DNA of 64,000 nucleotides, taken from NCBI GenBank assembly GCA_016839055.1, contig JAEKNX010000003.1, positions 124,001 to 188,000 on the forward strand, written 5' to 3'. Positions within the stretch are counted from its first letter, which is position 1. The number at the start of each line of letters is the position of its first letter. The stretch comes from Spirochaetales bacterium. Its GTDB lineage: Bacteria > Spirochaetota > Spirochaetia > UBA9216. The notes under the pieces are model-generated. The model did not search any database, was not told where the DNA came from, and worked only from the letters and a program-made list of their open reading frames with translations. Shown one piece after another: positions 2,036 through 4,621 of this stretch. The translations under genes and the position numbers were made by a program.

Positions 2036-2272
2036 CAGCCCTGGAGACTTATTGTTCAGGAAGGTTTAATCCACCTTTACTGGGATATTGACCAGAAGTA
2101 TAATTCAGCCTTCAAATTATTTAATATTCAGGCACTTGATATGGGGATTGCTCTCTGCCATCTGATTAAATCTTCAGAAGATTTGAATATCAGCGGGTCA
2201 TTTTCCGAAAAAGACCCGCTGCTTGATAATATCTCCTGGAAATATATTGCCAGCTGGCAACTCGAAATATAA
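2036..2272 (+). pseudogene. Remnant of a nitroreductase-family protein (C-terminal part)
   Basis: An open plus-strand stretch of 78 codons, ending in TAA at 2270-2272, has no start codon. It reads QPWRLIVQEGLIHLYWD, later ALDMGIALCHL, and ends YIASWQLEI. PWR..V, the LDMGIALCHF-like helix and the terminal YIATW are recognisable landmarks of nitroreductase-fold proteins. An in-frame TAA lies just upstream and the first half of the protein is missing. Its 3' part overlaps, in antisense, the aberrant tail of the Rieske reading frame. The family call comes from motif memory. Confidence 0.65.
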
Positions 2273-2577
2273 GAAACCGATTGATGCTCAGCTACAGGAT
2301 AAGAAGTCATCTTAAACTGAGAAGGAACAGGCGCGTTTTTCCCGTTTGCCCGAATTTTAACACAGCGGTCTGAAGAATCAAATTCGAGTCCATGAAAAGG
2401 GCACTGTATATTCCCCTCACAGACCTTCCCCATTGCAAGCGATGCGCCCCTGTGAGCGCACCGATCGCACATACAAACCGGTCTTCCGTTCCTGTCCCTC
2501 CAGAATACAAGCCTCTCACCAAGGCGGGTGACTACCAGCGGAGTTTTTTTTAAGCTCTCTGGATTCAAGAACGGCAT
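2273..2577 (-). pseudogene. Truncated Rieske [2Fe-2S] domain protein
   Basis: The frame opened at ATG 2577 carries a complete Rieske cluster site: C40-A-H42-RG and C59-P-F-H62-G. These are the ligands of a 2Fe-2S centre in the N-terminal domain of Rieske oxygenases. Homology ends around residue 100 (YPVAEHQS). The frame formally stays open to 2128, but its last 50 residues are the antisense of the nitroreductase remnant at 2036-2272. The catalytic mononuclear-iron domain is absent (full-length proteins are about 300 residues or more). It is therefore probably a non-functional fragment left by a deletion or inversion joint near 2273-2278. A free-standing small Rieske ferredoxin is the alternative. 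Confidence 0.7.
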
Positions 2578-2652: not shown

Positions 2653-4293
2653 TTACTTATTTCGCAGGTATTCCACCTTGCCGTCTATCAGAGTCATATC
2701 AACCTGGACTTCGTTAAGCCTCTCCTTTGGAAAGGTAGTAATATCTTCTGAAAGGACTATCATGTCAGCGAGTTTTCCAGCTTCAAGACTTCCTTTAATC
2801 TTCTCTTCGAAAGAAAGATAAGCCCCGTGAATTGTAGCACAGCGAACAGCCTCGAGAACTGATATGCACTGAGCCCTATCGAGCTGTACATCGTTACGGC
2901 GGTTATAACGATTGACGGCGCCGTCGAGGGTATGGATGCCAATGGGCCCGGACGGATAATCACTGGCGATGGAAACCTTGACCCCGGCATCAAGCATACT
3001 CCGGAGGGCTATCAGGTATTTCATCCTTTCCCCGTAAAACCGGTCATAGTTGGCCCCGATGGTTGTCAGCATTCCTGGATTGACGGTAGGACAGATATTC
3101 ATCTTTGCCATGCGATCGATGAGATCCTGGTCGGCAATGGTGCAATGCTCTATCCTGTGCCGGAGCTCCGGTCTATAATTATCAGCAAATGCCTTCTCAT
3201 AGCCTTCCACCATGAACTCAACGGCAAGATCTCCGATAGCGTGAGCGGTAGCCTGACAGTCTGCGTCATTTATCTCCTTGATATATTCGGCAACCTCTTC
3301 CCTCTCCCAGCCTCTTTCCCTGGGAAGTGCGGGCTCATGACTGTAAGGCTCGCGGGTAGCGCATGAGGGTCCTCCTGAGCCGCCGTCGATCATGAATTTG
3401 CAGGATCCTATCCTGAAATGCTCATCACCGAGGCCGGTCATGAAGCCAAGAGCCATGAAGTGGGCATTATCCTCTTTGGAAAAGGGTTTTCCGAAGATGC
3501 TGTGAAGCATCATATATGAGCGAATTTTAAATGTGCCCTGCCGGCAGAGTTTCTGCATGATATGATAGGATGGTTTGTCGCACTCTCCCGCATCGTGGAT
3601 TGAAGTTATTCCGTTTTGCAGAGCCACGTCATGAGATTTCATTGCCGCCCTTGCCTGCTGCTCCTCGGTGTAGTCAACCATGCCCCAGAGCTTGAAATGA
3701 GTATGGCCCCTGACCATTCCGGTAAGTCTACCGTCTACAACCTCCACCTCATCCTCAGGATATTTTTTTGCGTCTTCAGGTTTGCAGACTCCGAGAAACT
3801 CCAGGGCCTTGGTATTGTACATGCAGATATGTCCCCCGCCATGCATGCAGTGAACTGGATTATCCGGCGCTATCCCGTCGAGCTCTTCAATAGTTGGGTG
3901 ACGCTGTTCAGGAAGAAGAAGCGGCTCGTAGCCCATCATTGAAATCCACTCACCTGGAGCCTTGAGGGCAGCAGCCTTCTTGAGAATCTCAAGCATCGCA
4001 GATAAACTCTTGCAGTTGGCAAAAAATGTATCTATCATAGCTGAGTCCAGCTCCGACCCGATAAGGCCAGCAAGAATAGGATGAAAATGAGAATCAATTA
4101 TCCCCGGCATAAGGGTTCTGCCGGCAAGGTCTATCACCTTGGTCTGTCCATCGATAACTATTTCCAAATCTTTATCAGATCCTGTAAAAATTATCTTATT
4201 GTCCTTTATTGCCAGAGCCTCGGTAATATCATCGGTCTGGTTTACAGTAATTACTCTTCCATTTTTAAAGGCTATATCTGCTGTTGCTGCCAT
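2653..4293 (-). CDS. Amidohydrolase family protein, YtcJ-like
   Basis: This 546-residue metal-dependent hydrolase belongs to the large YtcJ / N-substituted formamide deformylase group. The N-terminal beta-sandwich (IAFKNGRVITVNQTDDITEALAIKD) is followed by LMPGIIDSHFHP, whose H69 and H71 are the first metal ligands. Later landmarks are ITSIHDAG, TAHAIGD, RIEHCT and IASDYPSGP, which supply further histidines and the catalytic aspartate. The C-terminus (GSLEAGKLADMIVLSED) closes the sandwich. A GGGGGAGA Shine-Dalgarno precedes ATG 4293. The substrate cannot be told from sequence; it stands alone. Confidence 0.9.
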   Translation of the reverse strand: MAATADIAFKNGRVITVNQTDDITEALAIKDNKIIFTGSDKDLEIVIDGQTKVIDLAGRTLMPGIIDSHFHPILAGLIGSELDSAMIDTFFANCKSLSAMLEILKKAAALKAPGEWISMMGYEPLLLPEQRHPTIEELDGIAPDNPVHCMHGGGHICMYNTKALEFLGVCKPEDAKKYPEDEVEVVDGRLTGMVRGHTHFKLWGMVDYTEEQQARAAMKSHDVALQNGITSIHDAGECDKPSYHIMQKLCRQGTFKIRSYMMLHSIFGKPFSKEDNAHFMALGFMTGLGDEHFRIGSCKFMIDGGSGGPSCATREPYSHEPALPRERGWEREEVAEYIKEINDADCQATAHAIGDLAVEFMVEGYEKAFADNYRPELRHRIEHCTIADQDLIDRMAKMNICPTVNPGMLTTIGANYDRFYGERMKYLIALRSMLDAGVKVSIASDYPSGPIGIHTLDGAVNRYNRRNDVQLDRAQCISVLEAVRCATIHGAYLSFEEKIKGSLEAGKLADMIVLSEDITTFPKERLNEVQVDMTLIDGKVEYLRNK

Positions 4294-4621
4294 ATTCTCC
4301 CCCCAGTGTTATAGTTGTCAGTAGTAAAGGCTCTTTCAAAAATCGGAGATTTTCAATCTCTTAATTTTTGAAACTGCCTCAGTATAAACATGATAATGAT
4401 TTACAGCTATTTATGAAATACTCGGGAATAGCATGAAGGACAATAAAAGACTCTATCATTAAACGATTTTGCTATTTTCATTTACCGCGGGGCTATTACT
4501 GATTATATTATGGGTCAAAGGAAAGTCAATTTTAACATAGATGACAATACCGCATTATGAAAACCGAAACCTTCATAAGAACATTCGGATACCCCTTCAA
4601 AAATAACGAGGAGAATTGAAT
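4294..4621. other. Intergenic region with a compound stem-loop
   Basis: About 330 bases lie between two divergent genes. At 4334-4373 an outer 10-bp stem, TTTCAAAAAT against ATTTTTGAAA, encloses a second stem, GAGATT-TTC-AATCTC. It could be a cruciform, a leader structure or a repeat unit. The remainder is AT-rich, should contain the promoters of both genes, and shows no other reading frame worth naming. Confidence 0.5.

Follow-up and report, generated by a model that had tools for sequence, protein, structure and literature searches.

An apparent 149-residue Rieske protein in a Spirochaetales genome is most likely debris of two truncated genes

Pseudogene remnants and spurious chimeric open reading frames (ORFs) are an already known kind of feature in bacterial genomes, and their common traits are truncation, a frame break, and a chance-open frame running into unrelated sequence. 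Two protein families bear on the case described here. The Rieske + VanA_C oxygenases carry a Rieske domain (PF00355) together with a VanA_C domain (PF19112), and both domains were found in L055 and L007, the full-length relatives of our locus that were tested. Intact relatives are mostly oxygenases of ~330 aa (324–352 aa from the first Met for most of those aligned, with 298 aa for L005 and 204 aa for L059), and the solved relatives of the homolog L055 include the methylxanthine N1-demethylase NdmA and dicamba O-demethylase. The TM1586-type putative nitroreductases (PF14512) have intact relatives of ~285 aa.

Both families are represented by fragments in the window, i.e., the whole 64,000-nucleotide stretch analyzed here (positions 124,001–188,000 of contig JAEKNX010000003.1, assembly GCA_016839055.1). 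Compared with the Rieske + VanA_C oxygenases, the minus-strand remnant retains the Rieske domain of the N-terminal part and all four cluster ligands, but it is without the C-terminal ~230 residues and its N-terminus lies in a different frame, and unrelated antisense sequence makes up the final ~49 residues of the ORF. Compared with the TM1586-type nitroreductases, the plus-strand remnant corresponds to the last ~79 residues of the protein, stop codon included, but it is without the first ~200 residues and has an in-frame TAA at its start. Judged by sequence, the 149-aa ORF combines a start from the wrong frame with an authentic Rieske core and a tail of antisense sequence (Table 1). It is not different in kind from known pseudogene chimeras; it is a curiosity that its tail is read from the strand opposite a second remnant.

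Table 1. Positions in the window of the two remnants, the joint between them, and the parts of the apparent ORF
Feature	Positions	Strand	Basis
Apparent 149-aa "Rieske protein" ORF (chimera)	2128–2577	minus	ORF list and translation
N-terminus of the Rieske remnant (MIKKQWYAVLESRELKK)	2546–2596	minus	frame other than that of the 149-aa ORF; tblastn, five homologs
Eight-base homopolymer with the Rieske frame break	2544–2551	T8 on plus, A8 on minus	sequence
Rieske [2Fe-2S] domain remnant	2284–2543	minus	PF00355, E = 1.6e-19; cluster ligands C40, H42, C59, H62 (ORF numbering)
Joint between the remnants (bracket)	2273–2287		nitroreductase stop at 2270–2272 and ends of Rieske similarity
Spurious C-terminal tail of the ORF, nitroreductase antisense	2131–2277	minus	G081 and G111 matches; AlphaFold pLDDT
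TM1586-type nitroreductase C-terminal remnant (~79 residues and stop)	2030–2272	plus	in-frame TAA 2033–2035; L022 match, eight-homolog alignment

The Rieske identity of the core is clear. The PF00355 profile covers ORF residues 7–80 with 70 bits against a cut-off of 20.3, and the C-x-H / C-x-x-H ligands are invariant in the homolog alignment; the 149-residue Rieske ORF named by a first-pass annotation is indeed present. The best match to the Rieske half outside its own genome is 64% identical over residues 5–103 (E = 4.8e-40) and belongs to an open frame of 330 aa. Among 60 relatives, own genome included, the Rieske part was matched at E ≤ 0.001 in 15 (best outside the own genome, E = 1.8e-30). 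When the whole ORF was searched against 394 genomes of the class, own included, matches were obtained in 54 genomes at 62 places, of which 1 is the ORF itself, 59 fall within the Rieske part, and 2 lie in the tail only. None of the 59 Rieske-part matches extends past ORF residue 106. With the own genome set aside, the 19 strongest matches (E ≤ 1.1e-18) are 41–64% identical and end at residues 98–104; 18 of them lie in frames open for 325–465 aa, and the one in G081 lies in a frame of 209 aa. Rieske-type sequence in the ORF thus extends to about residue 98, and the last ~49 codons are nitroreductase antisense. Codon usage, scored after training on 29 stretches, from position 4601 on, that are open for 300 codons or more, favors the Rieske frame over 2288–2545 as the best of the six frames (+4.3 bits). 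Of the invariant Rieske positions, 2 of 17 are changed (G70D and P76R), compared with 0–5 of 17–22 in intact homologs. PF00355 matched nowhere in the genome except at this remnant. A search of viral contigs gave no relative, and a scan of genome contigs gave two.

The remnant spans approximately the first 100 residues of its relatives, and the last ~230 codons are lost. The VanA_C catalytic domain was not found in the 149-aa ORF by Pfam profile search, and the homolog alignment shows that the remnant is without the ENQLDxxHLPFVH stretch of its relatives, which forms part of the mononuclear-iron site of Rieske oxygenases. When the homolog L007 was compared with the whole of this genome, it matched at the remnant alone (L007 residues 23–112, ending at 2266). 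Searches of the rest of this draft genome did not recover the missing parts of either gene; since the genome is estimated to be 97% complete, their absence is likely rather than certain. Another irregular Rieske gene was noted among the homologs. In G081 (L059, positions 1122–1869), residues 1–180 and 258–322 of L055 match in two different frames, ~77 residues of the catalytic part are missing, and 12 residues are inserted before the second ligand pair. By its sequence, this homolog is possibly a second, independent case of decay.

The beginning of the ORF is not that of the Rieske gene. In tblastn comparisons, the N-termini of all five intact Rieske homologs match the region 2596–2546 in another frame. 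Four of these match from their first residue, from 2599 or 2596 down to 2543–2549, with 53–72% identity (the highest value for L005, residues 1–18 at 2599–2546), and L008 matches from its residue 8 with 58% identity. Eleven of 12 aligned homologs begin with MI...WY, and L008 reads MNINRWY after a few extra residues. The N-terminus and the core share one frame in each of these 12 homologs, and no such continuous frame joins the N-terminus to the Rieske domain in the remnant: matches in the N-terminal frame end at 2543–2549, and matches in the core frame start at 2532, or at 2568–2571 when they run through the out-of-frame start. Since the N-terminus lies in the other frame and the break falls in the T8/A8 run, the ATG at 2577 and the first ~11 residues that follow it are not the real start of the gene. 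These out-of-frame residues had been overlooked by the first-pass annotation.

On the plus strand, 2036–2269 contains no stop and translates as QPWRLIVQEGLIHLYWD...ALDMGIALCHL...YIASWQLEI, with the TAA at 2270–2272 directly after it. The first-pass annotation had recognized a nitroreductase C-terminus in the ALDMGIALCHL and YIASW motifs and had taken the end of the Rieske ORF to be its antisense, and protein comparison now bears this out. A 289-aa frame (L022) in a genome of the same family has a C-terminus that shares 61% identity with the nitroreductase half over 75 aa (E = 4.7e-30); by tblastn, identity to residues 208–287 of this frame is 58.8% over 80 positions including the in-frame stop (E = 7.6e-30). 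The full L022 frame matches PF14512 at its positions 2–211 (E = 3.5e-35), and L064 also carries this domain. The remnant itself aligns to PF14512 positions 177–211 only, a fraction of the ~215 positions of the domain, and falls below the cut-off (E = 0.039); NCBIfam returned nothing for the piece beyond a weak, unrelated match (E = 0.18). Because Pfam alone is too weak here, the nitroreductase identification rests on the protein matches in whole genomes: the part was matched in 8 of 60 relatives and in 44 of 394 class genomes, own included. None of 17 invariant nitroreductase positions is changed, compared with 0–2 of 17–19 in intact homologs. Over 2036–2269, codon usage scores +16.5 bits for the plus-strand nitroreductase frame and −28.5, −24.3, and −55.5 bits for the antisense frames, the value of −24.3 being that of the ORF tail. 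When L022 was searched against this genome, it matched the remnant and one stretch of 29% identity elsewhere, and other PF14512 members lie on two other contigs. Upstream of 2030, to ~1994 with a gap, nitroreductase similarity is too weak to claim. Separately, a 15-nt near-perfect inverted repeat lies inside the remnant at 2191–2221, so that both strands read a similar peptide there (GSFSEKDPL on plus, GSFSENDPL on minus).

If the tail belonged to a Rieske protein, orthologs sharing its C-terminal ~50 residues would be expected, and none was found among the 62 places in 394 genomes. The two tail matches cover residues 107–148 in G081 and 103–148 in G111 with 50–52% identity; they have stops inside and lie on the opposite strand over intact nitroreductase genes. 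With 59 matches ending by residue 106 and the other 2 antisense, the tail is recognizable in this search only as antisense nitroreductase. Under permissive tblastn (E up to 10, no masking), the L007 and L005 alignments extend, with gaps, into the tail as far as 2185 and 2194. Alignments over at least 80% of the ORF, obtained for 4 of 450 plasmid records, would speak against a false tail; two of the four were examined, and their matches are read as over-extension. For a Calothrix protein the core alone gives 69.3 bits and the core with tail 69.7 bits, a gain of 0.4 bits, and the tail alone has no match, and for a Paraburkholderia protein the direct comparison ends at residue 104. With shuffled tails, the alignments extended to at least residue 125 in 14 and 19 of 200 trials.

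Eight homologous nitroreductase genes give a measure of how unusual the open tail is. Read in the register of the tail, their last 50 codons contain 2–5 stops (mean 3.25), whereas here the only stop is the one that ends the tail. A Poisson estimate gives such an open tail a chance of ~4%, for an ORF that was itself picked for being open. In another register, three of the eight genes are free of stops over 50 antisense codons, so antisense openness arises by chance. AlphaFold, run on the ORF with nine homologs, gave a mean pLDDT of 66.7 and a pTM of 0.55 (means of the five models, 41 to 67), with block means of 82–89 over residues 11–60, 63–76 over residues 61–100, and 41–53 over residues 111–149. 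The prediction fits a Rieske core with an unstructured tail, and a model of this sort does not prove absence of function.

The two remnants meet within a narrow interval. The stronger Rieske matches end at ORF residues 98–106, and the tblastn alignments of L008, L006, and L002 end at 2287, 2266, and 2266. Since the nitroreductase stop is kept and Rieske similarity ends there, the joint is placed at 2273–2287, which agrees with the position near 2275 proposed in the first-pass annotation. Among repeats in 1900–2700, no pair links the two sides of the joint; an 11-nt direct pair (2236–2246 and 2261–2271) lies just before it, within the nitroreductase remnant. The debris is flanked by an FMN-reductase-like gene (1196–1930, minus) and an amidohydrolase gene (2653–4293, minus), and the Rieske remnant runs in the same direction as the latter, 56 bp behind it. 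BLAST was used to compare the longer ORFs of 11 regions from other genomes, which surround relatives of the amidohydrolase, Rieske, nitroreductase, and FMN-reductase-like genes, and in none of these regions do the Rieske and nitroreductase genes occur together or beside the amidohydrolase; nor was such a pairing seen in the ORF listings of 16 shorter loci, which were inspected by listing rather than by BLAST. Both halves were matched in nine other genomes, on different contigs in seven and on the same contig in two; in these two, where the Rieske match is weak, the halves are ~95 kb (G090) and ~2.8 Mb (G231) apart. The comparison with relatives does reveal the undamaged full-length genes, but none displays the arrangement that preceded the joint: with the nearest relatives at only ~60% identity there is no undamaged sister locus to show it, and no compared neighborhood pairs the two genes. 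An Rfam search of 700–2700 returned two matches, both far below gathering scores.

A dispersed repeat was observed nearby. It is a 268-bp MITE-like element (879–1146) whose terminal inverted repeats, CAGCAATTCTGAATTTG / ...TTAGAATTGCTG, are imperfect and whose 9-bp target duplication, TTTACTAAT (870–878 and 1147–1155), is perfect. The query 780–1195 has at least 43 matches in this genome, its own place included, some of which are adjacent pieces of one copy, and 40 of 89 candidates were scored; there was no match in the plasmid collection. Among 21 aligned copies, this one included, the flanks agree at 7 or more of 9 bases in 13, compared with 2 of 420 cross pairs, a count that keeps at least one copy (L095) with a misplaced end. 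The element folds better than its shuffles (z = −3.3). Its 152-bp front part (879–1030) ends in an inverted copy of the terminal sequence (1014–1030) and is the sole part matched by two genome copies (query 100–251), while a third covers query 96–239. This arrangement of sequence suggests either that the element has a shorter version or that it was built as a composite.

Taken as a whole, the stretch between the FMN-reductase-like and amidohydrolase genes very probably holds the debris of two genes, i.e., two convergent remnants that give a false ORF by accident, and the ORF is most likely pseudogene debris that deletions have left behind, joined at 2273–2287. Under this explanation, a VanA_C-type Rieske oxygenase gene would have been shortened by ~230 codons at its end, the mononuclear-iron domain with them, and would additionally have suffered a frame break at the homopolymer just after the start; a nitroreductase gene would have lost its first ~200 codons and come to carry an in-frame stop; and the leftovers, probably brought together by deletion, would adjoin in convergent orientation. 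Because they are convergent, the Rieske frame continues into nitroreductase antisense until a chance stop at 2128–2130. Sequence comparison establishes the identity of both remnants, their truncation, and the false start, and truncation accompanied by a frame break or stop, the mark of a pseudogene, is seen in the two together (the Rieske frame break and the nitroreductase TAA at 2033–2035). We infer that the joint was made by a deletion and that the ORF product is without function. Against debris speak the four retained Rieske ligands, the 149 open codons, and the counts of changed invariant positions, which do not separate the remnants from intact homologs. An artefact, in which a contig misjoin at the joint and/or read errors in the homopolymer would make the living genome differ from the assembly, is unlikely. 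The frame break does sit in an eight-base run, the assembly is a draft of 43 contigs (97% complete and with 3.8% contamination by estimate), and neither missing part was found elsewhere in it. However, the joint lies inside a 462-kb contig, the amidohydrolase side is 82–84% identical in two genomes of the same genus and one of the same family, and the best match of the FMN-reductase-like gene is in the same genus (49%), so both sides of the joint look native. Moreover, the in-frame stop and lost front end of the nitroreductase would be left unexplained by a single misjoin at 2273–2287.

Could the chimera instead be a new, expressed Rieske protein that stands alone and has drawn its tail from antisense sequence? 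Its complete C-x-H ... C-x-x-H ligand set, its 149-codon frame behind a codirectional amidohydrolase gene, the high AlphaFold block means over residues 11–60, and a tail that is free of stops to its end where eight homologous genes have several would all be in keeping with this, and antisense ORFs in bacteria can be translated, as indicated in PMC7457138. Nevertheless, the start codon does not share the frame of the original gene, the tail blocks have low pLDDT, the combination occurs in its own genome only among the 62 places, and three of eight homologous genes are open in another antisense register; expression as such a protein is therefore very improbable. Equally slim is the chance of a new stand-alone Rieske electron carrier that would have shed its catalytic domain, acquired a new ATG, and gained its final 49 residues by reading a dying nitroreductase gene in antisense. 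The frame change in the homopolymer could also be programmed, by slippage, with a truncated Rieske protein made on purpose. A run of eight A, as found on the coding strand, is the kind of site where slippage occurs. Yet no frame change separates N-terminus and core in the 12 aligned homologs, and even a slippage product would lack the catalytic domain and end in an antisense tail, so that we give this reading almost no credence, even though programmed frame changes do occur in bacteria, where, as PMC3711429 indicates, both they and pseudogene frame changes are found.

Debris of two convergent genes thus remains the preferred explanation, and it both keeps and amends the first-pass reading. The chimera was borne out, but a deletion is the likelier cause, and the joined parts are better described as the front third of a Rieske gene and the back quarter of a nitroreductase gene in convergent orientation. 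The start of the ORF was found to be false as well, which strengthens the conclusion that the locus is debris. As a false ORF made of two remnants, the locus is ordinary in kind and opens no new mechanism. Its importance lies in annotation: a check of length and domain would probably pass the 149-aa ORF as a complete small Rieske protein, although it contains neither the start nor the end of the real Rieske gene, nor the part that encodes the catalytic domain, and the locus is a clear case in which comparing the end points of homologous matches exposes a false protein.
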